Part shown: positions 44,506-58,217 of the stretch, piece after piece
Position numbering within the stretch: the first letter of the stretch is position 1
Layout: every line of letters starts with the position of its first letter
From: an uncultured Spirochaetales bacterium
Lineage (GTDB): Bacteria; Spirochaetota; Spirochaetia; Sphaerochaetales; Sphaerochaetaceae
Assembly (NCBI GenBank): GCA_949289305.1
Contig: CASENB010000029.1
Coordinates: 62,001 to 126,000, forward strand
Direction: 5' to 3'
Length of the DNA stretch: 64,000 bases
The notes under the pieces: generated by a model
The model's database searches: none
Seen by the model: the letters and a program-made list of their open reading frames with translations, nothing else
What the model was told of the DNA's origin: nothing
Position numbers and translations under genes: made by a program

Positions 44506-45612
44506 CTATTTATGGCGGAAGGCCTTGCAGTTAAAATACTTTTCTTCCCATTCAGGATCTTTTTCTTTTCCATATTCTGAAAATTGGCAATCATGAAAGA
44601 GGTCGTCAGCAATTTCCATAATAATGCCTTTCAGTTCCAGATTGCTGATCCATTTATCAGGGATTCCTGATAAACCTAAATAAGCGCCAATTATATTCCC
44701 TGTTATTGATCCTGTGGAATCACTGTCTCCATTATGATTTACGGCTGCTATTATTGCTTTACTGAAATCATTGCTGTAGCGCAGAGAACAGAAGATAGCT
44801 ATCGCAAGCGCCTCCTCTGCTACCCATCCTTCTCCCAATCTTTTTATAGCATCTGCATCACAGATTTTCCTGTCATTAGCAAGATCTACCGCATCCCGAG
44901 TCAAGTTGAGAAAATAATCGATATATTTATCATCATGATACTGTTGACCAATTACGTGTCTCATATCTGCAACTGCTTCATTAATTGAGCAATCATGATG
45001 GGTGACAAGTGCAATGATATGGGTTAGTGCAGCAGCTGGTATATATCCAAGGGGATGGCCATGAGTAAGCGCAGCAACTTCAGCTCCTATATAATCTGCA
45101 ATGCCAATCTCATATAGTCGCCCGAAATAAAGGCCAATGGGGGCAATTCTCATTACGCCTCCACAGCCTTTGCTGTCATTTATTGGATTCTCAACTGTGC
45201 CGTTGTTTGGGGATGCAAGAGCATTGATGCATGTGCTTCCTGGAGCACGTCTGGAGAAAAGTTCAGGTACATCATCAAGCCACGAGTAATGGTATCCATT
45301 TAGCGGATATTTCTCAGTTTGTGTCCTGTACCAGTCCTTATAACTGTAGCGGATATAATCCCATGGTTTTGCAGATATGCCACGCATTTTTGCTCTCGTG
45401 ATGCCAATAAGAATACCAGTGGCTGTGAATAGTGTCATTTGCGTATCATCAGAGATCTCTGCAATTCCGTTATTCAGTTCATATGAAACAATTCCATGCT
45501 TACCGTATTTATTTTTGATGGAATTCATGCTCATGAATTCCACTGGGTACCCAAGTGCATCGCCAGAGGCTCCTCCAATAAGGCATCCTCGATATCTATC
45601 AATTAATTCCAT
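44506..45612 (-). CDS. ADP-ribosylglycohydrolase (DraG/ARH family)
   Basis: 368 residues from ATG 45612, where the family begins (DRYRGCLIGGASGDALG); a longer frame from 45729 adds a non-homologous stretch that overlaps the SPFH remnant. Metal-binding residues appear in DDTQMT and in HNGDSDSTGSI. It removes ADP-ribose from proteins or small molecules with Mg2+. TATAAT lies 7 nt before ATG with no ribosome site, so it may be leaderless. Confidence 0.9.
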   Translation of the reverse strand: MELIDRYRGCLIGGASGDALGYPVEFMSMNSIKNKYGKHGIVSYELNNGIAEISDDTQMTLFTATGILIGITRAKMRGISAKPWDYIRYSYKDWYRTQTEKYPLNGYHYSWLDDVPELFSRRAPGSTCINALASPNNGTVENPINDSKGCGGVMRIAPIGLYFGRLYEIGIADYIGAEVAALTHGHPLGYIPAAALTHIIALVTHHDCSINEAVADMRHVIGQQYHDDKYIDYFLNLTRDAVDLANDRKICDADAIKRLGEGWVAEEALAIAIFCSLRYSNDFSKAIIAAVNHNGDSDSTGSITGNIIGAYLGLSGIPDKWISNLELKGIIMEIADDLFHDCQFSEYGKEKDPEWEEKYFNCKAFRHK

Positions 45613-45718
45613 AAATAATATTATATACACCAATAATAAATTCAGAAATTTTTGTTTGCATTGAGGAATGGAATAATGGTCATCTTTGAAAAATAAGAAA
45701 AAACTTGATAGAAGGCTC

Positions 45719-45990
45719 TTATTTTCCATTCTTTAACAGTTCTCCTAAAGCTCCGATGCTTCCTAAAGACATCTCTGTCTCATAAGACATGAAAATGGTC
45801 TTATTGTCCTTGTGTAGATGATGTCTTGAATCCTTCTGTTTCGAGAATCTTAGCCTGTTTTTCTCATTCGGCAATGGATATCATTGCCATCTGATCTCTT
45901 TCTGCAGACATATGCTTTTCTATCTGGTTGCGAATTGAGGAGATAACATCAATGTCCTTTTCTTCGATGCGATTGTAGAATTATTAAGGA
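45719..45990 (-). pseudogene. SPFH/band-7 protein, C-terminal remnant
   Basis: On the minus strand, ISSIRNQIEKHMSAERDQMAMISIAE, then a stop, EKQAKILETEG in the same frame, and after a shift TIFMSYETEMSLGSIGALGELLKNGK. This is the C-terminal coiled coil and end of a stomatin/HflC-like protein. It has an internal stop and frame changes and no N-terminus. Confidence 0.65.
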
Positions 45991-46288: not shown

Positions 46289-47590
46289 TTATATATCTAT
46301 TGCGGTATCATTTAATAGGAATTCTTCAATGCCGATATAAAGTATTCCTTTTTCATCGTGCCATGGAATAATGTCGTCTTTTACCACTACGATCTTTTTA
46401 AATGAGTCATGCACCCTGTTGAGAGAATTAGTTTCTTGTATGCGTTTTTCTTCATCAGCAACGGTAAGGGCAGATTGTATGTAATAGCGTTTGCTACCTT
46501 TGTTGGCAATGAAATCTATTTCCAGCTGACTTCTAATTTTCTTACCGTTTTCATCTTTCCAATTGTATTCTATTACTCCTACATCGACATCAAATTCCCT
46601 TGCTATGAGCTCATTAAAGATAATATTTTCCATAATGTGGTTCTCTTCTTGTTGCCTGAAATTTAATCTGGCATTCCTAAGACCAACGTCTGTGAAATAA
46701 TATTTAAGTGGTGTTTCTATGTATTTCTTGCCTTTGATATCATAGCGGTAAGCTTTATATAAAATAAATGCATCAATAAAATAATCTAAATATTTGCTAA
46801 GTGTGTTTGCACTAATTTTAGTTTGCTTTACGCTTTTAAAAGAGTTTGATAACTTTGTTGGATTTGTAAGTGAACCAATGGAAGAAGAAATTATGTTAAG
46901 CAGATCTTCTAATATCTCATTGCTATTTATAATATGGTTGTGTTCGATGACATCTGTAAGATAAGTTTTTGAAAAAAGATCTTTTAAATATTTGCTTTTA
47001 TCTTCATGTGTCTTTAAATGCAGAAGCATAGGCATCCCACCATATGTGCAATACTCCCTCCATGCATAGCGTTTATCACCATCATATGAATTATAAAACT
47101 CTTTATAAGTCAATGGATTTACTCGTATCTCGTCGCCTCGGCCTCTGAATTCTGTAAGAATGTCTGAAGATAGTAGGTGGGAATTACTGCCTGTTACGTA
47201 TATATCTACATTTTTTAACTTCATTAATCCATTGATAACATCTACAAATCCAATTTTTGCATTTTTATCGTCTACATATGGGTTTTGGATTTCTGACACA
47301 TTTTGTATTTCATCTAGAAACACATAGTATTTTTGCGTTTTATCTGACACTAAGTTTCGTATATATTTATCAAGTTCAAGTGGATTACGATACTTTACAC
47401 TACTAATATCATCTAAAGCCAATTCTATTATGTTAGAATCATTGATACCTATTGAATTGAGATAACTATGATATAGTTCAAAGAGTAAAAAAGATTTTCC
47501 ACATCTGCGAATGCCTGTGATTACTTTGACCAGTCCATTTTCTTTTTTAGAAATAAGTTTATTAAGATAGTGATTTCGTTCAATGATCAT
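46289..47590 (-). CDS. AAA+ ATPase, DUF4143 family (copy D)
   Basis: 433 residues. Walker A GIRRCGKS (26-33), Walker B YVFLDEIQN, sensor VTGSNSH, GGMPMLLHL, winged helix and DUF4143. In the nuclease-like part LEIDFIA is kept, but the next strand is YYIQSALTV, so E-x-K is lost. AAAGGA 6 nt before ATG. Upstream on its own strand are two 32-nt repeats with an inner palindrome. Closest in type to copy B. Function unknown. Confidence 0.85.
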   Translation of the reverse strand: MIIERNHYLNKLISKKENGLVKVITGIRRCGKSFLLFELYHSYLNSIGINDSNIIELALDDISSVKYRNPLELDKYIRNLVSDKTQKYYVFLDEIQNVSEIQNPYVDDKNAKIGFVDVINGLMKLKNVDIYVTGSNSHLLSSDILTEFRGRGDEIRVNPLTYKEFYNSYDGDKRYAWREYCTYGGMPMLLHLKTHEDKSKYLKDLFSKTYLTDVIEHNHIINSNEILEDLLNIISSSIGSLTNPTKLSNSFKSVKQTKISANTLSKYLDYFIDAFILYKAYRYDIKGKKYIETPLKYYFTDVGLRNARLNFRQQEENHIMENIIFNELIAREFDVDVGVIEYNWKDENGKKIRSQLEIDFIANKGSKRYYIQSALTVADEEKRIQETNSLNRVHDSFKKIVVVKDDIIPWHDEKGILYIGIEEFLLNDTAIDI

Positions 47591-47606: not shown

Positions 47607-47722
47607 CTCGAAATATTTTTGCGGATAACCGCATTTTTGATTCATGTTAATTATATATCGTGATTTCATGAAGTCAAGAATGCTCGAAATATTTTTGCGG
47701 ATAACCGCATTTTTACTTCGAG
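47607..47722 (-). promoter_or_regulatory. Two 32-nt repeats with palindrome before ATPase D
   Basis: Identical 32-nt units at 47607-47638 and 47683-47714, each with CTCGAA at the left and the dyad TGCGGATAACCGCA inside. The second is extended by TTCGAG (47717-47722), making a larger nested palindrome. They lie 17-132 nt before the ATPase start, so they are likely operators. Confidence 0.65.
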
Positions 47723-47756
47723 TTTTTTTGCTGTGCTAAGTGTTACTAAATTTTTA

Positions 47757-47785
47757 TTGACAGATGGGTAGTGCTTTTATAATAT
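47757..47785 (+). promoter_or_regulatory. Promoter of the NADAR operon
   Basis: TTGACA (47757-47762), 17-nt spacer, TAATAT (47780-47785). The region 47790-47820 is AT-rich with short TGTTATA repeats that could be the site of the GntR/UTRA regulator at the operon's end. Confidence 0.65.
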
Positions 47786-47829
47786 AATACATATTTGTTA
47801 TATCTTCATGTTATAATAATGGAGGTCAT

Positions 47830-48267
47830 ATGCAGGAGATCAGATTCTACCATGAATATGATGATTACGGTTATTTCTCCAACTACTGGGTTGCTCCGAT
47901 TACTCTCGAAGAGAAGGTCTGGCCTTCTTCTGAGCACTACTATCAGTCTTGCAAGTCTCTAGATCCTGAGTTCAGAGAGAGAATACGCACTGCAGCTACT
48001 CCAGATGATGCGAAGACTCTTGGAAACAGTGAGGAGTGCGTTTACCGTGATGATTGGGATACGTACAAGGATACGGCCATGAGGATCGCTTTAAAAGCAA
48101 AATTCACGCAGCATGAGGATTTGAAATCCCTTCTTTTGGCAAGCGATGATGCCATTTTGATAGAAGCCTCTGATCGTGATTATTACTGGGGTTGCGGAGC
48201 TGATGGATCTGGTAAGAGCATGCTTGGAAAGCTCTTGATGGAACTTCGTTCACAATTGCTCGCCTAA
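47830..48267 (+). CDS. NADAR family protein (YbiA-like)
   Basis: 145 residues, full-length NADAR: GYFSNYWVAPI at the start, the conserved WPSSEHYYQSCK, and YWGCGADGSGKSMLGKLLMELR at the end. Family members cleave N-glycosidic bonds: YbiA/RibX-type enzymes act on riboflavin intermediates, and others remove ADP-ribose from guanine in DNA. Here it is the first gene of an operon with a sugar-type ABC importer and other N-glycoside-acting families, which suggests metabolism rather than a toxin-antitoxin role. Ribosome site GGAGG. Confidence 0.88.
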   Translation: MQEIRFYHEYDDYGYFSNYWVAPITLEEKVWPSSEHYYQSCKSLDPEFRERIRTAATPDDAKTLGNSEECVYRDDWDTYKDTAMRIALKAKFTQHEDLKSLLLASDDAILIEASDRDYYWGCGADGSGKSMLGKLLMELRSQLLA

Positions 48268-48285
48268 GCAGAATCAGGAGGGGAT

Positions 48286-49929
48286 ATGAAGATAGGAAAT
48301 AAAGCCATAGACAGGTTTATAAAGCTTGCTTATATGACGCTTAGAAGTACTGTAAAGTTTCCTTTATCCCGTCTGGAACAGTCATATAAGGCCATGAGGC
48401 CTTTCATGCATCCTAAGGCAGATGAAGCTGAGTTTGACAGCGATGCTTTCCTATATGCTTCAGCTCGGCTCCCTTCATGCATATTTAAAGCACAGCATGT
48501 TGTTTTAGGTCAGAGCATCACTTATTTTGAAGAGGTAGGCATATCCGTTTCCAAATGGGAAGAGGTATATGCGAAGGCAAGACGCAGAAGATATCTTTAT
48601 GATGGAAAGGATACCGTTGCCGCATTTATATCGAGCAAATCAGATATAGATGACGTAATCCCAACTCTGCTCTGCTTTCAGATAGAGTGGAACAAACTTG
48701 CAAAAAACATACGGCTATTGTCATCAGATGGACTTTCTTCTGATTATGAGTCTCTTTTAATTAAAGCGACTGGAACTGATTCTTCCTATGTACGTTCTGT
48801 CTTTTCTAATTTAGAAGATAGCGTTAAATCCCTATATTCTTTTGATTGTAATTTCAGCATCCAGAACTTTGAGGCAAGTTATTCAAGATATATGAAGGAA
48901 ACGTCCTCTTGGTGGGATCAGATATGCTCGGCTTTTCCTGATATCGAAGACAGGGAAGTCTACTTCGTCTCATCAAATACTCATAGCCTTATAAACATAA
49001 TATCCGGATTTGCCGAAAAGCATGAGCGCGAGATTCTTGAAACCGCATCAGAAATAGAAGATCTTGGAGAGCTTGTCAGAAAATACAATGACTCGTCTTC
49101 TTCTCTCTACAAGAGCAATCTTCTTTACTACCTTCTCATGAAGTGTGAATCGTGCGATGACGGCGCTTTAAGGGACAAGAGGATAGCCTATGAAGAGAGT
49201 CTTGGAATAAAACGCATAAGGAGTTCCCGCTTCTTAGACGTTCCTACACAGATTATTGATTTTGGTACGGTATCTAAAACTAGGATGGCAGATAGGATAG
49301 GGGATTCCAATGCGATCATATTGAATATAGATTATCCGCTTGGCAGAACTGCATATTTCGTTCTGAGCAAAGTCAGCGAACACATAGATAAGCTTCGCGG
49401 CGTCTACGTGATAGGCAAGGCTGCTTCTGTTTTCGCTGAACGAGGCGACGTGCTTATTCCTTCTTCTGTGGTTGATCTGCATAATGGAAACAACTATTAT
49501 TTTTCAAATGCGATAGGAGCTTCAGATCTAGAAAGATATATAAGCCAGAAAAACCACAGCATATATGATAAGCAGAGAGCAGTGACTGTTCTTGGAACGT
49601 TTTTGCAAAATAAAAAACTGCTCAATGATATACTTGCAGCTGGAATTACGGACATAGAGATGGAGTTCGGGCCTTATCTTGCTGCATTTTATGAGATCGT
49701 ATATCCGAAGAGATATCCTGAGGAAGAGATAATAACTATACCGTCAGATTCGATTGATCTTGGAATCGCTCATTACGTCTCTGACAATCCATTCTCTTCT
49801 TCTCCAGGACTTAGCCATGCGCTTGCACTTGATGGCGTTGAGGCGACATATGCTGTTTCCTATGCCGTCCTCGATAAGATTCTAAGCGATATCAGCAAAA
49901 GAAGGAGGATCTTAGATGGCACAAATTAA
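48286..49929 (+). CDS. Unknown protein with nucleoside-phosphorylase-like C-terminus
   Basis: 547 residues. The N-terminal half is helical, Ser-rich and unrecognised. The C-terminal 230 residues read like the NP-1 phosphorylase fold: strand-loop IILNIDYPLGR, VYVIGKAASVFAERGDVLIPSSVVD (compare G-D-x-V-I-P), and ITDIEMEFGPYLAAFYE (compare the ligand-binding V-E-M-E). It may belong to the DUF6909 family; that name is from memory. Starts 18 nt after the NADAR gene and overlaps the next permease by 14 nt. Confidence 0.6.
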   Translation: MKIGNKAIDRFIKLAYMTLRSTVKFPLSRLEQSYKAMRPFMHPKADEAEFDSDAFLYASARLPSCIFKAQHVVLGQSITYFEEVGISVSKWEEVYAKARRRRYLYDGKDTVAAFISSKSDIDDVIPTLLCFQIEWNKLAKNIRLLSSDGLSSDYESLLIKATGTDSSYVRSVFSNLEDSVKSLYSFDCNFSIQNFEASYSRYMKETSSWWDQICSAFPDIEDREVYFVSSNTHSLINIISGFAEKHEREILETASEIEDLGELVRKYNDSSSSLYKSNLLYYLLMKCESCDDGALRDKRIAYEESLGIKRIRSSRFLDVPTQIIDFGTVSKTRMADRIGDSNAIILNIDYPLGRTAYFVLSKVSEHIDKLRGVYVIGKAASVFAERGDVLIPSSVVDLHNGNNYYFSNAIGASDLERYISQKNHSIYDKQRAVTVLGTFLQNKKLLNDILAAGITDIEMEFGPYLAAFYEIVYPKRYPEEEIITIPSDSIDLGIAHYVSDNPFSSSPGLSHALALDGVEATYAVSYAVLDKILSDISKRRRILDGTN

Positions 49930-50824
49930 GAAAGGTATGGTGAGATACAGCCGTCGTGAAGTCATGACAGCTGTACTTTTCCTGCTTCCGGCATTCGTTC
50001 TATTTCTTGTTTTCAAGTATTATCCTTTGGTTGACAATTTCAGAATAAGCCTTACAAGCTGGAACTTCTTCAGTGAACATAAGACGTTCGTCGGACTTCA
50101 GAATTTCATCAACATATTCACATCCGACACATTTTGGAAGATATTAAAAAACACGTTCTTCTACACCATATGTTCCACTTTGATATCCATCGTCATAGGG
50201 TTCTTTCTTGCAATAGCTCTTTTCAGGATGAAGGGGAGACTTCCTAAGGTTTTGAAGACGCTTCTTTTCGTACCGAATGTTACAACAGCAAGTGCGATGG
50301 CTATTTTATGGATGTGGATATTCGATCCGGACTTTGGACTTTCAGGACAGATTTTCTCAGCTATTGGAAAAGCAAGTCCCAGGTGGCTTCTCGATTCAAA
50401 TCTTGCAATGTGGGTCATAATATCGCTTTCTGTATGGAGGAGCATGGGGTATGTCATGCTCATCTATATGAGCGGCCTTTCTGGGATAAATGATGAAATA
50501 TATGAAGCAGCAAGGATCGACGGGGCATCGAATGCGCAGCAGGTATTTAAAATAACGCTGCCATTGCTAAAGCCTACGACTTATTTCCTTGCTTTAACGA
50601 TGTTTATTCAGGCAATGCAGGTATTCGATATCGTATCTGTAATGACTGGTGGCGGTCCTTACGATTCTACGAACGTGTTGAATCTTTATATCTATCAGAT
50701 GGCGTTTGGCCGTTCAAGGGCAGGATATGCGGCAGCTCTTTCAGTAATACTCTTTTTAATCCTTCTGCTTTGTACCGTAATACAGCAGATAGCAAGCAGG
50801 AAAAAGGAGGAGTCTTATGTCTAA
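49916..50824 (+). CDS. Sugar-type ABC transporter permease (UgpA/MsmF-like)
   Basis: 302 residues, six membrane helices, EAA loop EAARIDGASNAQQVFKITLPLLKP (about 198-222). This is the first permease of a CUT1-type importer, the group for oligosaccharides and glycerol-3-phosphate. Overlaps the gene before (14 nt) and the second permease (8 nt). Confidence 0.9.
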   Translation: MAQIKKGMVRYSRREVMTAVLFLLPAFVLFLVFKYYPLVDNFRISLTSWNFFSEHKTFVGLQNFINIFTSDTFWKILKNTFFYTICSTLISIVIGFFLAIALFRMKGRLPKVLKTLLFVPNVTTASAMAILWMWIFDPDFGLSGQIFSAIGKASPRWLLDSNLAMWVIISLSVWRSMGYVMLIYMSGLSGINDEIYEAARIDGASNAQQVFKITLPLLKPTTYFLALTMFIQAMQVFDIVSVMTGGGPYDSTNVLNLYIYQMAFGRSRAGYAAALSVILFLILLLCTVIQQIASRKKEESYV

Positions 50825-51656
50825 TTATAGAAAAACCAGCATTGAAACCATTGTTAAGATTATTTTTCTCCTTGTTGCTGCTGTAGTAGTTGTAATCCCA
50901 TTTTTATGGATGATAATGACGAGCTTACAGCCTTCCTCTGCCGCAGTGCTTCAGCGTCCTATAAGGTTTCCCCTCCCTCCTAATTTTGAAAACTATTTGA
51001 AAATCTGGAGTGTGGAGCCTTTTGGAATTTATGGTGTAAACAGCATATTCGTATCCCTTTCCGCAGCGTTTTTACAGGTTGTTGTGGCAATTCTTGCTGC
51101 ATATGCTTTCGCTGTTCTTCGGTTTCCTTTTAAAAAGATTGCATTCCTTTTCGTTCTTGCAGTCCTTATGATGCCGACGCAGGTAGCAATAATTCCGCTT
51201 TATTCGTTAATGACGAAGCTTGGGTGGCTTGATAGTTATGCAGGACTTATCATTCCGTTTGCAGCAGACGCTTATGGCATCTTCCTTATAAGACAAAGTT
51301 TTCTGTCTGTTCCTCGTGATTTCGTGGAAGCAGCTCAGATTGAGGGAATGGGGCACGGACGGATTGCGTTTAGCATCATGCCGCATCTTATAAAGCCATC
51401 ATTAATCGCATATATAATCATGGCGATTAAATGGAGATGGAATGATTATTTCTGGGTATTGGTAATGACAAGCAGTGTGGACAAGAGGACGCTTCCTGTT
51501 GGTATTGTAATGATGAAGGAAGTCAGCGACGGTGGGACGCAGTGGCATCTTTTAATGGCTGCGACGCTGGTTGTTCTTCTTCCTATGCTCATCCTCTTTC
51601 TTTGTCTGCAGAAATACTTTACCAATGATTATATGTCAGGAGCTATTAAAGGGTAA
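50817..51656 (+). CDS. Sugar-type ABC transporter permease (UgpE/MsmG-like)
   Basis: 279 residues, six membrane helices, EAA loop EAAQIEGMGHGRIAFSIMPHLIKPS. Second half of the channel. No ATPase gene lies in the operon; CUT1 importers often share a common MsmK/UgpC ATPase encoded elsewhere. A small hairpin (GTGGC/GCCAC, 51662-51674) lies before the next gene. Confidence 0.9.
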   Translation: MSNYRKTSIETIVKIIFLLVAAVVVVIPFLWMIMTSLQPSSAAVLQRPIRFPLPPNFENYLKIWSVEPFGIYGVNSIFVSLSAAFLQVVVAILAAYAFAVLRFPFKKIAFLFVLAVLMMPTQVAIIPLYSLMTKLGWLDSYAGLIIPFAADAYGIFLIRQSFLSVPRDFVEAAQIEGMGHGRIAFSIMPHLIKPSLIAYIIMAIKWRWNDYFWVLVMTSSVDKRTLPVGIVMMKEVSDGGTQWHLLMAATLVVLLPMLILFLCLQKYFTNDYMSGAIKG

Positions 51657-51689
51657 TTCATGTGGCAAGGCCACATTTTAGGAGGATTT

Positions 51690-52979
51690 ATGAAAAAGCT
51701 TATTGTAGCGCTTCTCATCGCGTCATCTGTCTTTTCTTTGTGGGCAGGTGGAAATACCGAGACGACGGCTGTAAGTAACGGCCCTGTCACAATCGAATTA
51801 TGGAGTTCCTTAAGCGGAACAAAGGCAAATGTGTTCGATACTCAGGTTGAAAGGTTCAACTCATCGCAGAATGAGGTTGTCGTTAATGTAATACATCAGG
51901 GCGGATATTCTATTTTAAGACAGAAGGTTGCTGCTGCAGCTAATGCAAGAAACATGCCTGACATGCTTATCTGCGACTACATCGATGTCGCATATTATGC
52001 ACAGCTAGGACTTCTAAGAAGCCTTGAGGGACTTTTCAGTGATGAACTTATTAATGATTATTACGAGTCAATGCTTGTTGATCTCAGATACGACGGACAG
52101 CTTTATGCAATCCCTTACAATAGAAGCACTCAGGGATTCTATGTAAATAACGACGTTCTTAAAGAGGCCGGCATAGACAGAGTTGCATCAAATTGGGATG
52201 AATTTTTAGAGGATGCGAAAAAGTTCAAGGAACTTGGAGATGACTATTACTATGGATACGCTTTCTTTAATCAGTTCCTATTTGATGCTATCGCATATAC
52301 ATGGGGAGCTGATATCAGCACTCCTGATGGAGAAGTAAAGCTTAACAGTCCTGAAATTGTTGAGATGATGACTTACTTCCAGCAGATGTACAACGACGGT
52401 CTTCTTTTAATGCCTCCAGCACTCGTCGGAGGATTTGAAGAGCTTAACGGAGCATTCCTTTCAGGCAATGTTGCAACAGTTTTCCAGACATCTTCTTTTG
52501 CTCCAACAGCAGAGCAGATTCTCGACTGCGATTGGTCGTTTGAATTCATCCCTGCAGGAGAGGGTGGAAACGCAATAACGATTGGTGGAGGAAACTTCGC
52601 AATCTGCTCTGGCACAAGCGATGAGGAAGCAGCTGCTGCTGTGAAGTTCCTTGAGTACATGTCTTCTCCTGACATTGTGACTGAGTTCTTCATGGAGACT
52701 GGTAATCTTCCAATAAGAAAGAGTATTATGGATCGTGAAGATGTTAAGACATATCTTGCGGAAAATCCTTCATACCAGACTATGCTTGATCAGCTTGAGT
52801 ATGGTAAGCCTGCTCCAAGCATTACGAAGAATATCCGTGACGTGTTTAACAGAGTAAATGACATGATGAGCCGCATAATTCTTAATGGAGAAGATCCAAA
52901 GACTGTTCTTGATGAGTATACAGCCGAGTTCCAGGCTGAGATTGATGAACAGAAGAGTTTGGGCGAGTTCATTTACTAA
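51690..52979 (+). CDS. ABC transporter substrate-binding protein (family 1, UgpB-like)
   Basis: 429 residues from ATG 51690 behind AGGAGG; an upstream ATG at 51660 lacks a site and lies in the hairpin. Signal peptide (LIVALLIASSVFSLWAGG) without a lipobox Cys, so a soluble periplasmic protein. Mature part VTIELWSSLSGTKANVFDTQVERFN and GGYSILRQKVAAA follow the family 1 pattern close to UgpB, which binds glycerol-3-phosphate and its diesters. The actual ligand is unknown. Confidence 0.9.
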   Translation: MKKLIVALLIASSVFSLWAGGNTETTAVSNGPVTIELWSSLSGTKANVFDTQVERFNSSQNEVVVNVIHQGGYSILRQKVAAAANARNMPDMLICDYIDVAYYAQLGLLRSLEGLFSDELINDYYESMLVDLRYDGQLYAIPYNRSTQGFYVNNDVLKEAGIDRVASNWDEFLEDAKKFKELGDDYYYGYAFFNQFLFDAIAYTWGADISTPDGEVKLNSPEIVEMMTYFQQMYNDGLLLMPPALVGGFEELNGAFLSGNVATVFQTSSFAPTAEQILDCDWSFEFIPAGEGGNAITIGGGNFAICSGTSDEEAAAAVKFLEYMSSPDIVTEFFMETGNLPIRKSIMDREDVKTYLAENPSYQTMLDQLEYGKPAPSITKNIRDVFNRVNDMMSRIILNGEDPKTVLDEYTAEFQAEIDEQKSLGEFIY

Positions 52980-52995
52980 TAAAGAGGAGATTCTT

Positions 52996-54465
52996 ATGGA
53001 GATATGCCGCAGCAAGTGCAGGATACTTTACTCAGGAGAAGATGAGTCTCAGAGCAAGAGATATTTTATGTTATCTTTTTCTGTCCCATCTTCCTGCGGC
53101 ATTTTAAAACTATCTCTTTCCCGTTTCACAGAGAAGGAAGCGCAGATTCCTATCGCTCTATTTGACAGCGATGGGAAGATGCGTATATTTCGCGCCCCTG
53201 AAGGCGCAAAGGGATTCTATACGGATTCTTATGTGATTTCTGGAAAAAACGCCTCATCTGGAGCCGTTCCCGGTCCGATAAAAGAAGGAGAGTGGAAACT
53301 CGTATTATATAAGAGGCGTTTTTTCGAGGATATCGAAATTGATCTTGTCATAGAAGCTCTAAAAGCTGATTTCTGCACTGATTCTGCTTTGCCTCTTACT
53401 TTCCAAGATAAGGTTGTCAACCAGGCGGATGGGTGGTACAGAGGGGAGCTCCACGTTCACTCTTCAGAGAGTACAGGAAGACGACCTATTGAAGATGTGC
53501 TTGCTGCTGCAGATGAGGAGAATCTTGACTTTCTTGCTATAACGGATCATTTCACGTCAAGCCATTGGAGGCTTATAGAAGAATCGAGTAAGGCTCATAA
53601 GGTGCTATGTCTAAGATCTATGGAGGTCTCGGGAGATAAAGGCCATGCGAACGTTCATGGATTGACAGATTGGATTAATCCCCTTGTTGATGATAATGAG
53701 CGTCTATCTGCTTTTCTGGGCCTTAAGGAAAGACCGAGTATGGAAGCTATTGCCGATTCTGTTCATTTGATGGGCGGCATCTTTGGAATCAACCATCCTC
53801 TTAGCGGGATGGTTGGCTGGCAGTATGCGGATTTTCCTATTGAGAAAGCCGACATGATAGATATCTGGGCGTCTCCCGACAATGCTACATCCCTTTGTTA
53901 TCCGACTCTTTATGATTCCTATTTAGTCCAAGGATACAGGCTTGTCGCTGTCGGATCATCAGATAGCCATGATCCGCGCCAGGAGAAAGGCCCATGGAGA
54001 TTCGGACAGCTATATACGTACGTATATGCCGAATCTTTGTCTTCAAAAGGAATAATAGAGGGAATAAGGAGGGGGCGCGTGTATGTCGCATGCGGAAAGT
54101 CACGTATGGATATGACCATTTCTTATAAGGGGAAGCGCTATTATATGGGAGACTCTGTTCCTTATGAAGGAGGAGATGTTGAGCTTTCTGTTGAAATAGG
54201 ATCAAATCCTTCAGGAAATTTATTTATAATGATTTCCGGTCAGCTTAATTCTGTGCAATACATTGACTCCTCATCTGATATGAGAACTTATGCATTCAAC
54301 ATTCATGAGCATGATATTCATATGTTGAAGTCGCAATCTGCGTTTATCCGCATTGAATTCTTTGAGGATGTTGTAAAGGCGAAATTCTGGGGCATGGCGC
54401 ATAGGGATTCAGAAAGCATGAGACTTCTTTCAAATCCGATATGGCTTAATAAGGAGATAAGATAA
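52996..54465 (+). CDS. CehA/McbA-type PHP-superfamily metallohydrolase
   Basis: 489 residues from ATG 52996 (GAGGAG 6 nt upstream). N-terminal 140 residues are beta-rich. The PHP metal site is visible: GELHVHSSES (H-x-H), AITDHF, NHPLSG and GSSDSHD. C-terminal beta domain. Enzymes of this group hydrolyse phosphoesters or related esters outside or inside the cell; no signal peptide is seen, so it probably acts in the cytosol on the imported compound. It starts 16 nt after the binding-protein stop. Confidence 0.85.
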   Translation: MEICRSKCRILYSGEDESQSKRYFMLSFSVPSSCGILKLSLSRFTEKEAQIPIALFDSDGKMRIFRAPEGAKGFYTDSYVISGKNASSGAVPGPIKEGEWKLVLYKRRFFEDIEIDLVIEALKADFCTDSALPLTFQDKVVNQADGWYRGELHVHSSESTGRRPIEDVLAAADEENLDFLAITDHFTSSHWRLIEESSKAHKVLCLRSMEVSGDKGHANVHGLTDWINPLVDDNERLSAFLGLKERPSMEAIADSVHLMGGIFGINHPLSGMVGWQYADFPIEKADMIDIWASPDNATSLCYPTLYDSYLVQGYRLVAVGSSDSHDPRQEKGPWRFGQLYTYVYAESLSSKGIIEGIRRGRVYVACGKSRMDMTISYKGKRYYMGDSVPYEGGDVELSVEIGSNPSGNLFIMISGQLNSVQYIDSSSDMRTYAFNIHEHDIHMLKSQSAFIRIEFFEDVVKAKFWGMAHRDSESMRLLSNPIWLNKEIR

Positions 54466-55031
54466 TGGATATAAAGCATGTAGCGGTATTTTGCGGTTCA
54501 AACTTAGGAAACGATCCTGCATTTAAGACAGAAATAATAGCTTTGGCTAATGCTCTTTTAGAAAAAGAGTGGGGGCTTGTCTATGGTGGAGGACATAGAG
54601 GCCTTATGGGTGAGATATCGTCCTATATGCTTCAAAACGGTGCGCATACGATAGGCGTTTCTCCAAAAAGGTTTTATAAGGCGGGAGATGAGGAGAAATC
54701 CTCTGAGTTCCATCTTGTTGATACCATGCATGAAAGAAAGGCCATGATGTACCGGCTTTCGGATGCGTTTATAATATTTCCAGGAGGAATTGGAACGCTT
54801 GATGAATATGCCGAAATATCGACATGGCATCAGATCGGCTTTTCAGGAAAGCCTGTAGCTGTTTTGAATGTCAACGGATTCTTTGACGGTCTTATTGCTC
54901 AAATCGACCACATGATCGAATGTGGATTTATAAAAGAGGAGACAAGAGGGGAGTATTTCTTTTCAGATAGCATTGATGAGATAATCAACTATCTATCAGA
55001 ATATGAGTATGTCAAAGGAAAGTGGGAGTGA
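54465..55031 (+). CDS. LOG-family protein (nucleotide phosphoribohydrolase)
   Basis: 188 residues, TIGR00730 type. GGGHRGLMGEIS and FPGGIGTLDEYAEI are the two LOG motifs (P-G-G-x-G-T-x-x-E) with the Arg/Glu residues that cut the N-glycosidic bond of a nucleoside 5'-monophosphate, giving base and ribose-5-phosphate. ATG shares one base with the preceding stop. Its 3' end overlaps the convergent regulator gene by 20 nt. Confidence 0.92.
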   Translation: MDIKHVAVFCGSNLGNDPAFKTEIIALANALLEKEWGLVYGGGHRGLMGEISSYMLQNGAHTIGVSPKRFYKAGDEEKSSEFHLVDTMHERKAMMYRLSDAFIIFPGGIGTLDEYAEISTWHQIGFSGKPVAVLNVNGFFDGLIAQIDHMIECGFIKEETRGEYFFSDSIDEIINYLSEYEYVKGKWE

Positions 55032-55740
55032 TGTTTCCCCCTTCCGATACCGTGAATTTATAATATGCGGGATTGAAGATGGATTTGTCGTATTGTATAG
55101 GCATTCCATCTTCAAGATAAGCCGTGCTTTCCAAAAGGATTCCAGCCGAAATCTCTTTCATCTTTAACAGCCTTGTTATCTCTTTTTTTGGAATTACGGC
55201 GGAAATTGAGAATATGTTCTTTCCTATGTTCTTCTCATATATTCTTGTATAGATGGAGAAAAAAGAGTCTTTTTCCAGATCATAGCTGTGCATTAATTCG
55301 CTTGTCTCCAAACGAACATACGTATCCATTACTGCGATTGGAATGCCCTTTATAATTCTTAAGCGTCTGAAATGCCAGACTTCTTCTTCTGAATCTTTTA
55401 AAAGCAGCTCTTTTCGTATCTCCTGAGTTGCTTCTATTTTCTCATCGATGCATAGTCTGGACGTGACATCGATTCCAGACTGTTTCAGATGCTGTGAGAA
55501 GCCTAATGCTGAATTGCCGGAACGAAACTGCATCGGCCTTGTTGCAAATGTCCCTTTTCCATGCATGCGTACCACATAGCCAGCATCCGAGAGTTCTTCT
55601 AGAGCCCGGCGTATTGTGATCCTGCTGACATCATACATTGAACAAAGTTCAAACTCTGAGGGTAATAGAAAGCCTTCTGCCCATATTCCGTTAGTTATCC
55701 TGTTCTTTATATCTTCAATAACTTTCTGATATTTTGTCAC
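55012..55740 (-). CDS. GntR-family regulator with UTRA domain
   Basis: 242 residues. Winged helix at about 8-70 (SEFELCSMYDVSRITIRRALEELSDAGYVVRMHGKGTF) and a UTRA ligand domain (about 95-235). UTRA regulators usually respond to phosphorylated sugars or similar metabolites. Convergent with the preceding operon, which it most likely controls. Confidence 0.9.
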   Translation of the reverse strand: MTKYQKVIEDIKNRITNGIWAEGFLLPSEFELCSMYDVSRITIRRALEELSDAGYVVRMHGKGTFATRPMQFRSGNSALGFSQHLKQSGIDVTSRLCIDEKIEATQEIRKELLLKDSEEEVWHFRRLRIIKGIPIAVMDTYVRLETSELMHSYDLEKDSFFSIYTRIYEKNIGKNIFSISAVIPKKEITRLLKMKEISAGILLESTAYLEDGMPIQYDKSIFNPAYYKFTVSEGGNITPTFL

Positions 55741-55996
55741 TTCGATATTCTATCATACGGATAATGTATTTTCCATTATTATTGTTTTTTACTGTAGTAG
55801 GATTTACTTATTGGATGTCTTCTCTGTAGTATTTTAATGTCAGGGCAGTAAAATGGTAAAAACTAAATCTTTTTAAATAGAAACGACTAGTATGCAGCAT
55901 TAAAAACACAAAAGAAAATGAAAAAAGATTATAATTTTCAGAAATTTCTTGTTTATTTGTGAAAAAATCACATATCATTATATGAGAAGGTTTAAA

Positions 55997-57343
55997 ATGC
56001 TTGTTAGGTTTATTGTTGAAAATTTTTTATCATTTAAAGAGCGTCAGGTCTTTTCTATGGTTGCAGCAAAGCATACAAGACATCCAGATCACGTTATAAC
56101 TTTGAAAGGTAAAAGAATATTAAAAGGCAGTTTTTTATTTGGAGCCAACGCTTCAGGGAAATCAAATTTTATAAAGTCAATTAACTATGCGAAACAAATT
56201 ATTCTTTTTAATCTTGATATGGTTGATATTGATAGAAAATATTTCCGACTGGATTCTGAATATTCTAATAAGCCTAGTATGTTTCAGTTTGATTTTTTCG
56301 CCAATAATGAATATTACTCATATGGCATTGCTTTTTCAAATAAAGAAAAGGAAATTCTTTCTGAATGGTTATATAGGGTTGATGGAGAAAATGAGGAGTG
56401 CATATTTGAGCGTGAAACAAAGAATGGAAAATCTATTATAAAAACAGGCTTGAAATTAGACAAAGATACTAAATATCGTTTCCGAATATATAGTGAGGAC
56501 CTTCCACGAAGTAAGACTTTCTTACGTGATATATCTGAAAAAGAGATTATCAATACAAAACAATTTAAAGCTTTTTCTGATGCTTGGAAGTGGATTAACG
56601 GAATTTTCATATTGATCCCTGATCGCCATTTGACTATGGAAGGAATAAGAAAATGTGCATCTACATTAGAAATAGACCATTTATTAGAAGCTCTTGATAC
56701 TGGAATAAAATCTGTAATTATCAAAGAAGAAACGTTAGATAATGTCATTGGAAATTTGTCTCCTAATGTTCGTCCTTATATTTTAAGAGATATAAAGAAT
56801 GGATTACGAGGAAATAGGGGGAAAGTTAATTTTATCATTGATGGCAATAATTATCTTTTTGAGGATAAAAATGGCGAGATAGTTGCATCTCTTCAACTTA
56901 ATGATCATGGAAATTCTGAAGAACTTTTTTCTTTTAAAGAAGAATCTGATGGCACGAAGAAACTTTTTGATTTGCTTCCTTTCGTTGTGGGACTGCCTAA
57001 TATTAGTATTGTTTTAATAGATGAAATTGATCGTAGCTTGCATACAAAACTATTAATACAGTATGTAGAATTGTTTTATGAACAAAATAAAGATAGACAT
57101 GTACAACTTATTGCCACGCTTCATGATGTAAATCTTATGAATTTAAATATAATTAGGCAGGATGAAATTTGGTTTATAAGAAGGGATGAATACACGGGAG
57201 CATCGGATATGTACTCTCTAAATAAGTTCCAAATAAGATATGATAAGAAAATAATAAAGGATTACTTGTTAGGCAGGTTTGGTTCTATTCCTTGTTTTGA
57301 TCAGATTGATTTTATTGAAAAAGAGGATGGTTCTGATGAGTAA
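55997..57343 (+). CDS. AAA ATPase, RloA/AbiL-type, of a two-gene defence-like unit
   Basis: 448 residues from ATG 55997, with AGAAGG 6 nt upstream; the family begins here (MLVRFIVENFLSFKE). Walker A GANASGKS (49-56), signature-like SDGTKKLFDLLPF, Walker B ISIVLIDEIDRSLH, and His switch in ATLHDVNLM: an SMC/OLD-like ATPase. Together with the RloB gene, which it overlaps by 8 nt, it matches the RloA-RloB or AbiLi-AbiLii layout, an abortive-infection type. Very AT-rich. Confidence 0.82.
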   Translation: MLVRFIVENFLSFKERQVFSMVAAKHTRHPDHVITLKGKRILKGSFLFGANASGKSNFIKSINYAKQIILFNLDMVDIDRKYFRLDSEYSNKPSMFQFDFFANNEYYSYGIAFSNKEKEILSEWLYRVDGENEECIFERETKNGKSIIKTGLKLDKDTKYRFRIYSEDLPRSKTFLRDISEKEIINTKQFKAFSDAWKWINGIFILIPDRHLTMEGIRKCASTLEIDHLLEALDTGIKSVIIKEETLDNVIGNLSPNVRPYILRDIKNGLRGNRGKVNFIIDGNNYLFEDKNGEIVASLQLNDHGNSEELFSFKEESDGTKKLFDLLPFVVGLPNISIVLIDEIDRSLHTKLLIQYVELFYEQNKDRHVQLIATLHDVNLMNLNIIRQDEIWFIRRDEYTGASDMYSLNKFQIRYDKKIIKDYLLGRFGSIPCFDQIDFIEKEDGSDE

Positions 57344-58217
57344 TCAATATAGGATAAAAACGTCTGATTTGTTTACACGATCAGATGATGACGTAAAAGA
57401 AGAGCCTCAAAGCGTTGTTTTTATTGCAACAGAAGGTACTGTTACTGAGTATGATTATTTTCGATATGTAGATAAATATAGAGTTTTTTTAGGTATAAAT
57501 AAGCTTGTTAGGATAGAAGCAATCAAACGAGAAAAAAAGAATTCACAAAGTAATCCAGAAGCTATTTTAGACGTATTAAATGAAATTGTAGAACTTCATG
57601 AAAATGGTATTGATATCGATAGACTGTTCTCAGATTTACCTAATGGCAATGATATTAATAGATTAAGACAATGCATTAATAATTCTGAAATTAATGACGA
57701 TAATTATCCTTTGCTGGAGGATTTGCAAAAAACGTTAAAAGATAAAGGACTTAATTTAGCTTATCTAAAATTTATTTCAGAATATGGTGAAAGAAATGAT
57801 ATTTTTTGCGTGTTATTAGACAAGGATAAAGCATCTCATAGTAAAAAACAGTTGTTATCGGTTTTAGAAAATTGTGATATTAATGGGTATAAATTTTATA
57901 TATCTTCTCCATGTTTTGAATTTTGGCTACTGCTTCATTTATGTGATGTAAAAAAGGAATATGCTGAAAGACTTATCAAGATAAAAGATAATGAAAAGAT
58001 TTCAGATTCTCATACTTATGTAAGTAAGGAAGTATCGACAATAGCGCATCATTCAAAGCATATCTCAGAAAAGATTTTTGTTGATCATTATTTAAATTCA
58101 ATTGATAAAGCTATTGAACATGCTTTTGCATTTGAATCAGATGAAAAGGTTCTAATTACATCTGATGTTATTGGAACGAATATCCCTGAGTTATTTTCAT
58201 TATTATTTGCAAAATAA
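57336..58217 (+). CDS. RloB-family protein (TOPRIM-like nuclease partner)
   Basis: 293 residues from ATG 57336, inside the end of the ATPase gene (ATGAGTAA). TEGTVTEYDYF (32-42) is the E-G-x-x-T-E motif of RloB, and VLLDKDKASHSK carries the D-x-D-type segment; YISSPCFEFWLLLHL is the typical family core. RloB is predicted to be a TOPRIM-fold nuclease released or controlled by its ATPase. Confidence 0.82.
   Translation: MSNQYRIKTSDLFTRSDDDVKEEPQSVVFIATEGTVTEYDYFRYVDKYRVFLGINKLVRIEAIKREKKNSQSNPEAILDVLNEIVELHENGIDIDRLFSDLPNGNDINRLRQCINNSEINDDNYPLLEDLQKTLKDKGLNLAYLKFISEYGERNDIFCVLLDKDKASHSKKQLLSVLENCDINGYKFYISSPCFEFWLLLHLCDVKKEYAERLIKIKDNEKISDSHTYVSKEVSTIAHHSKHISEKIFVDHYLNSIDKAIEHAFAFESDEKVLITSDVIGTNIPELFSLLFAK

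Follow-up and report, generated by a model that had tools for sequence, protein, structure and literature searches.

The operon and its closest described counterparts

The operon reported here lies in a 64,000-nucleotide window, the whole stretch of DNA analysed, from an uncultured Spirochaetales bacterium, and its closest described counterparts are a transport operon and several N-glycosidic enzymes. Like ugpBAEC-Q of E. coli, it joins an ATP-binding cassette (ABC) importer of the UgpA/UgpE/UgpB class to an adjoining cytoplasmic, potentially phosphodiester-cutting enzyme; in contrast to ugpBAEC-Q, it has a CehA-type protein in place of UgpQ, three N-glycosidase-type enzymes and a linked GntR-UTRA regulator, and no ATPase gene is found within it. 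Its first product, a NADAR protein, belongs to the same subfamily as the riboflavin-intermediate N-glycosidase YbiA of E. coli (48% identity), but the gene of YbiA stands beside dinG and rhlE, whereas the NADAR gene lies inside a transport operon. NADAR proteins differ in a residue of the last strand, which is Glu in the YbiA type, Asp in the BC4488 type and His in the phage type (PMC11125620), and those of the YbiA type are described as regulatory or detoxifying enzymes of riboflavin synthesis (PMC11125620, PMC9503650). The operon is a variant of nucleotide and phosphodiester uptake operons; no description of the gene set, or of a CUT1-CehA pair, was found in the searched literature, outside which most subscription journals lie. 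We give a probability of about 0.48 to its being a locally regulated system for the uptake and dismantling of a phosphoester-linked ribonucleotide-like compound.

Seven co-directional genes occupy positions 47830-55031 of the forward strand; no gap between them exceeds 33 nt, and three pairs overlap, by 14, 8 and 1 nt. The tight packing, the single promoter and the families given in a preliminary description of this DNA are confirmed. They encode a NADAR N-glycosidase of the YbiA subfamily (47830-48267); a protein of 547 residues (48286-49929, after a gap of 18 nt); two CUT1 permeases with PF00528 domains, UgpA-like (permA, 49916-50824, overlapping by 14 nt) and UgpE-like (permB, 50817-51656, overlapping by 8 nt); an extracellular solute-binding protein (SBP) of the UgpB class (51690-52979, gap of 33 nt); an apparently cytoplasmic PHP metallohydrolase of the CehA/McbA family (52996-54465, gap of 16 nt); and a LOG-type nucleotide 5'-monophosphate phosphoribohydrolase (54465-55031, overlapping by 1 nt). 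The gene for a GntR-family regulator with a UTRA domain (55012-55740, reverse strand) converges on the LOG gene with an overlap of 20 nt. Two starts were corrected relative to the list of open reading frames, that of the SBP from 51660 to 51690, 3' of aggagg, and that of CehA from 52885 to 52996, 3' of gaggag, and ortholog alignments agree with both. The source assembly is of metagenome type and 2.27 Mb in size, and no Rfam elements were found.

The identical eight-gene order was present in the window and in four other genomes (loci L007 in G121, L008 in G066, L009 in G041 and L010 in G055), spanning two genera, with protein identities of 38-93%. Among the 139 genomes of the host family, the 547-residue protein occurs in these five, and the complete gene set was not found in the remaining ones. 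Genes outside the eight-gene block differ among the five genomes while the order within it is kept, so the block boundaries are real and the arrangement goes beyond chance; the regulator gene is also present in L008 (49% identical). A profile of the SBP recovered the same five genomes (E < 1e-200, the next best at ~1e-61), and a strict CehA profile recovered only two members in a sample of 393 genomes of the phylum, both of them with the operon. The operon is a single unit, patchily distributed, and its conservation in five genomes of two genera excludes the objection, foreseen in the preliminary description, that the gene set might not be kept together elsewhere. That three N-glycosidase families should meet by chance in a unit of seven genes is unlikely (~1e-5, assuming some 15 such genes among 2100).

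Enzymes and importer

The NADAR protein matched PF08719 (E = 1.4e-34; 120.1 bits against a cut-off of 35.1) and TIGR02464 (129.8 against 73.7 bits) and fell in the YbiA clade, and the YbiA-type Glu, aligned with that of E. coli YbiA, is kept in all five operon NADARs. The LOG protein scored 156.6 bits against TIGR00730 (cut-off 96.35) and keeps the MHxRKAxM and PGGxGTxxE motifs, scoring below the cytokinin phosphoribohydrolase equivalog (107.6 against 300 bits). Since a second LOG gene is found elsewhere in the genome, the operon copy is a dedicated one. For both proteins, profile scores and catalytic motifs agree with the earlier placement in families that act at N-glycosidic bonds.

Three further genomes of the family also carry NADARs of the YbiA clade, there in an uptake locus of another kind (type II; L200, 9682-17940; L201, 2376-10049; L202, 9800-18200) with genes for an importer, a phosphorylase, a kinase, amidohydrolases, a creatininase and NADAR. 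In the two loci that were typed, these were PNP_UDP_1, PfkB kinase, amidohydrolase, creatininase and ABC-importer genes, the best models for the PfkB proteins being ribose-1-phosphate kinase and ribokinase. NADAR is fused to the PfkB kinase in one genome (L200, G122), and in L201 (G067) an 8-oxoguanine deaminase gene (588.6 bits, cut-off 532) overlaps the NADAR gene. Like the operon, these loci, of a nucleoside salvage type, combine an importer with N-glycosidic cleavage and a YbiA-type NADAR; unlike it, they have another importer class, and PNP_UDP_1, a kinase and amidohydrolases instead of CehA, LOG and the 547-residue protein. They support a catabolic N-ribosidase role of the YbiA-type clade, and they do not tell what the window operon imports. 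NADAR gains from them a physiological context beyond toxin-antitoxin pairs and riboflavin control. Riboflavin catabolism was discarded as the pathway, as the described anaerobic neighbourhood carries different genes.

The 547-residue protein, previously termed NP-1-like, belongs to the Pfam family DUF6909 (PF21850; E = 1e-152), of unknown function; the earlier term fits its C-terminal half, for which an NP-1 fold is predicted, and not its N-terminal half. In an AlphaFold2 model built from 48 sequences (pLDDT 89.3, pTM 0.89), residues ~200-540 matched uridine and purine nucleoside phosphorylases and AMP nucleosidase (VIA Z 15.9-17.1; root-mean-square deviation 2.4-4.1 Å over 207-241 residues; Foldseek E ~1e-6). 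In this half, E458-M459-E460 and an SDxP motif (D500-x-P502) are essentially invariant in 66 relatives, which include distant spirochaete proteins fused to a cyclic nucleotide monophosphate (cNMP)-binding domain. The AMP nucleosidase of E. coli (Amn) shows D-M-E followed by S-D428-K-P in the same order, a correspondence drawn from motif order and not from superposition, and E458-M459-E460 and D500 would be the ribose-binding (E/D)ME and the catalytic-type Asp of the NP-1 fold. Residues 205-537 appear to share fold and motifs with Amn and the NP-1 phosphorylases, but no homology was seen by profile comparison (hhalign against one or several Amn sequences, probability <1%, not significant). In addition, a search of PDB sequences gave no relevant match, and the N-terminal family of Amn is absent from the genome. 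The N-terminal domain (residues ~1-200) gave no confident fold match when folded alone (Z no higher than 3.5, reached with uridine phosphorylases; Foldseek E 0.6 or more). The weak top matches of this domain (48367-48888, residues 28-201) were again uridine phosphorylases, and the suggestion that it could be a degenerate NP-1-like half is far from conclusive. On the strength of the predicted fold and the invariant motifs, DUF6909 is probably an N-ribosyl-cleaving enzyme. This fold-based assignment is the part of the analysis most likely to be of use to others: PF21850, present in many Chloroflexota and spirochaetes without a known role and named in no paper of the searched literature, now has a testable function.

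The surroundings of DUF6909 in other bacteria were also inspected. In Anaerolineae, whose loci are related by descent and not independent, a gene for the FAD/FeS subunit of xanthine dehydrogenase was found near DUF6909 in 28 of 76 loci and one for the molybdenum subunit in 25, mostly flanking it directly, and 9-10 loci also have XdhC or YqeC genes close by; this neighbourhood points to purine bases. About one third of the Chloroflexota loci (L062-L138; e.g., L067, 3147-8648) have DUF6909 between xanthine-dehydrogenase subunit genes. In other spirochaetes (L039-L054), DUF6909 stands behind an N-terminal cNMP-binding domain (tested in two proteins) in proteins of ~700 residues with unrelated neighbourhoods. 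The operon DUF6909 proteins form a clade of their own (support 0.999), nearer to Chloroflexota and apart from other spirochaete members; this suggests, and does not prove, transfer. Searches for DUF6909 on plasmids gave just two weak partial matches.

The CehA protein scored 185.6 bits against NF038032 (cut-off 80), and residues H153, H155, D184, H185, E210, H267, D323 and H325, of the PHP metal-ligand type, are invariant in the five orthologs; no signal peptide was seen by eye. The CehA/McbA family also includes carbamate hydrolases. The operon enzyme would split phosphoesters.

As regards the importer, the UgpABE class proposed earlier was the best NCBIfam match for its three proteins, although the equivalog cut-offs were not reached (UgpA 131.1 against 335 bits, UgpB 80.7 against 411, UgpE 147.8 against 297), so that it denotes the best-matching class only. 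The SBP matched PF13416 (E = 7e-40) and, among PDB entries, UgpB and UspB. A stand-alone UgpC-like ATPase gene, its product 50% identical to E. coli UgpC, is located elsewhere in the genome. In the nearest paralogs within the family (30-31% identity for the SBP, 37-40% for the permeases), a glycerophosphodiester phosphodiesterase (GDPD) gene directly follows, at the position that CehA occupies in the operon, and these GDPD-linked paralogs, with whose SBPs that of the operon shares an R-S-T motif, lend support to the import of a phosphodiester. In several genomes of the family, a GDPD gene is directly linked to a UgpABE-like importer (L205-L209). In Deinococcus, a permA-permB-SBP-CehA module has the same order at 23-36% identity, and Rhizobiales have comparable modules. 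The pairing of such an importer with CehA therefore extends beyond the operon, which joins it to three N-glycosidase-type enzymes.

Proposed route and alternative cargoes

We infer the following scheme, from the substrate and the chemistry of CehA to the sequence of steps, the binding of the regulator and its inducer. The UgpABE-type importer, powered by the shared UgpC-like ATPase, would take up a small ribosyl phosphodiester, whose phosphoester CehA would split in GDPD's place. LOG, NADAR of the YbiA type and DUF6909 with its predicted NP-1 fold, which may differ in the bases they prefer, would then cut the nucleotide or nucleoside so released at its N-glycosidic bond and supply central metabolism with the free base and with ribose 5-phosphate, ribose or ribose 1-phosphate. 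The GntR-UTRA protein would keep the operon repressed from the palindrome next to the -10 box, and an inducer resembling a sugar phosphate would relieve this. The route proposed in the preliminary description, import followed by cleavage at phosphodiester and N-glycosidic bonds, finds support as a class; the substrate and the CehA chemistry are conjectural. The NADAR-kinase and NADAR-phosphorylase loci lend support to a riboside. Should the scheme be confirmed, these spirochaetes would possess a pathway dedicated to the use of nucleotide-type phosphodiesters as nutrients.

Several observations weigh against a ribonucleotide-like cargo. Three N-glycosidases for one substrate look redundant; sugar binders are among the closest SBPs of solved structure; UgpB positions such as E66 and Y346, which we take to belong to the pocket, are not kept in the SBP; and DUF6909 is linked to AMP nucleosidase by fold and motif only, the profile comparison not being significant. 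Moreover, unlike the operon, the CUT1-CehA modules of Deinococcus and Rhizobiales have no NADAR, DUF6909 or LOG, their place being taken by a sugar isomerase or other genes, so that CehA plus an importer does not by itself imply nucleotides. These modules, together with the GDPD genes of the nearest importer paralogs and the regulatory or detoxifying role described for YbiA-type NADARs (PMC11125620, PMC9503650), would also suit a base-free glycerophosphodiester or sugar phosphoester, with CehA substituting for UgpQ and NADAR, LOG and DUF6909 recruited otherwise, as housekeeping or damage-control nucleosidases. We regard such a cargo as unlikely, given that three unrelated N-glycosidase-type families are kept in a tight operon across identities of 38-93%, and that the separate LOG of the genome makes the operon copy a dedicated one. 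A plain oligosaccharide importer with passenger genes agrees with the SBP_bac_8 and CUT1 families being mostly sugar carriers, but the operon has no glycosidase or sugar kinase, the nearest paralogs are GDPD-linked and the whole set is conserved, which leaves this explanation very improbable.

The NADAR gene also brings to mind a system that, like the phage NADAR-SLOG-Macro networks, would deal with NAD-derived ADP-ribose compounds, either as a scavenger or as a counter-signal: every NADAR subtype tested strips guanosine bases of ADP-ribose in vitro (PMC11125620), phage NAD-ADPr systems contain SLOG together with NADAR domains (PMC9503650), and 2 kb upstream of the operon there is a gene for an ADP-ribosylglycohydrolase. 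However, this gene does not recur next to the other four operons, the LOG protein is of the TIGR00730 type, which acts on nucleotides, the operon holds no ADP-ribosyltransferase, Macro or Nudix gene, the defence models match NADAR weakly, and a dedicated importer is ill-suited to defence; we consider such a system improbable. A narrower form of the ribonucleotide scheme, to which we assign a similarly small chance, would make both the operon and the type-II NADAR loci dedicated salvage systems for purine ribonucleotides that have been damaged or modified, such as nucleotides of the ring-opened FapyG type or of 8-oxoguanine, imported here as phosphodiesters. It is suggested by the 8-oxoguanine deaminase gene that overlaps NADAR in L201 and by the chemistry of the YbiA substrate, which is a deformylated FapyG nucleotide. 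If it is true, DUF6909 would be a new family of N-ribosyl hydrolases or phosphorylases and the YbiA-type NADARs would be catabolic ribosidases, beyond damage control or antitoxin action. The remaining probability goes to some explanation outside those considered here.

Promoter, putative operator and surroundings

A sigma-70-type promoter (TTGACA-17-TAATAT; 47757-47785, forward strand) precedes the NADAR gene; the promoter scan overall yields no more promoters than shuffled sequence, and TTGACA and a -10-like hexamer recur 5' of all five operons. Directly 3' of this hexamer and 5' of NADAR, each of the five carries a version of the palindrome ATAACAAATTTGTTAT: L007 has it intact, L009 and L008 have near-perfect copies, and degenerate ones stand in L010 and in the window, where the copy AATACATATTTGTTAT (47786-47801, forward strand) is a probable GntR operator. 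As the window copy by itself is no rarer than chance, the operator claim rests on position and orthologs. Elsewhere in the genome, the palindrome was found at three places with two mismatches, none of them in the window, and no clear regulon emerged from its matches across the genome. The linked GntR protein (PF00392 and PF07702), encoded beside all five operons, would repress the operon. Both the UTRA domain of the regulator and the single promoter, whose layout with the palindrome recurs 5' of all orthologous operons, had been anticipated correctly. Upstream of the promoter, a 42-nt direct repeat (47607-47648 and 47683-47724, 90% identical) contains in each copy a terminator-like hairpin, TGCGGATAACCGCA-TTTTT.

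A role of the operon as a defence system was not supported, the defence models giving a weak NADAR match. Among the surrounding genes, the ADP-ribosylglycohydrolase (44506-45729, reverse strand) and an AAA/DUF4143 protein that matches the candidate defence family PDC-S01 (46289-47590, reverse strand) are not conserved beside the other operons. Finally, an AbiLi/AbiLii-like defence pair (PADLOC E = 3.5e-79 and 8.9e-18) lies directly beyond the GntR gene, at 55985-58217.

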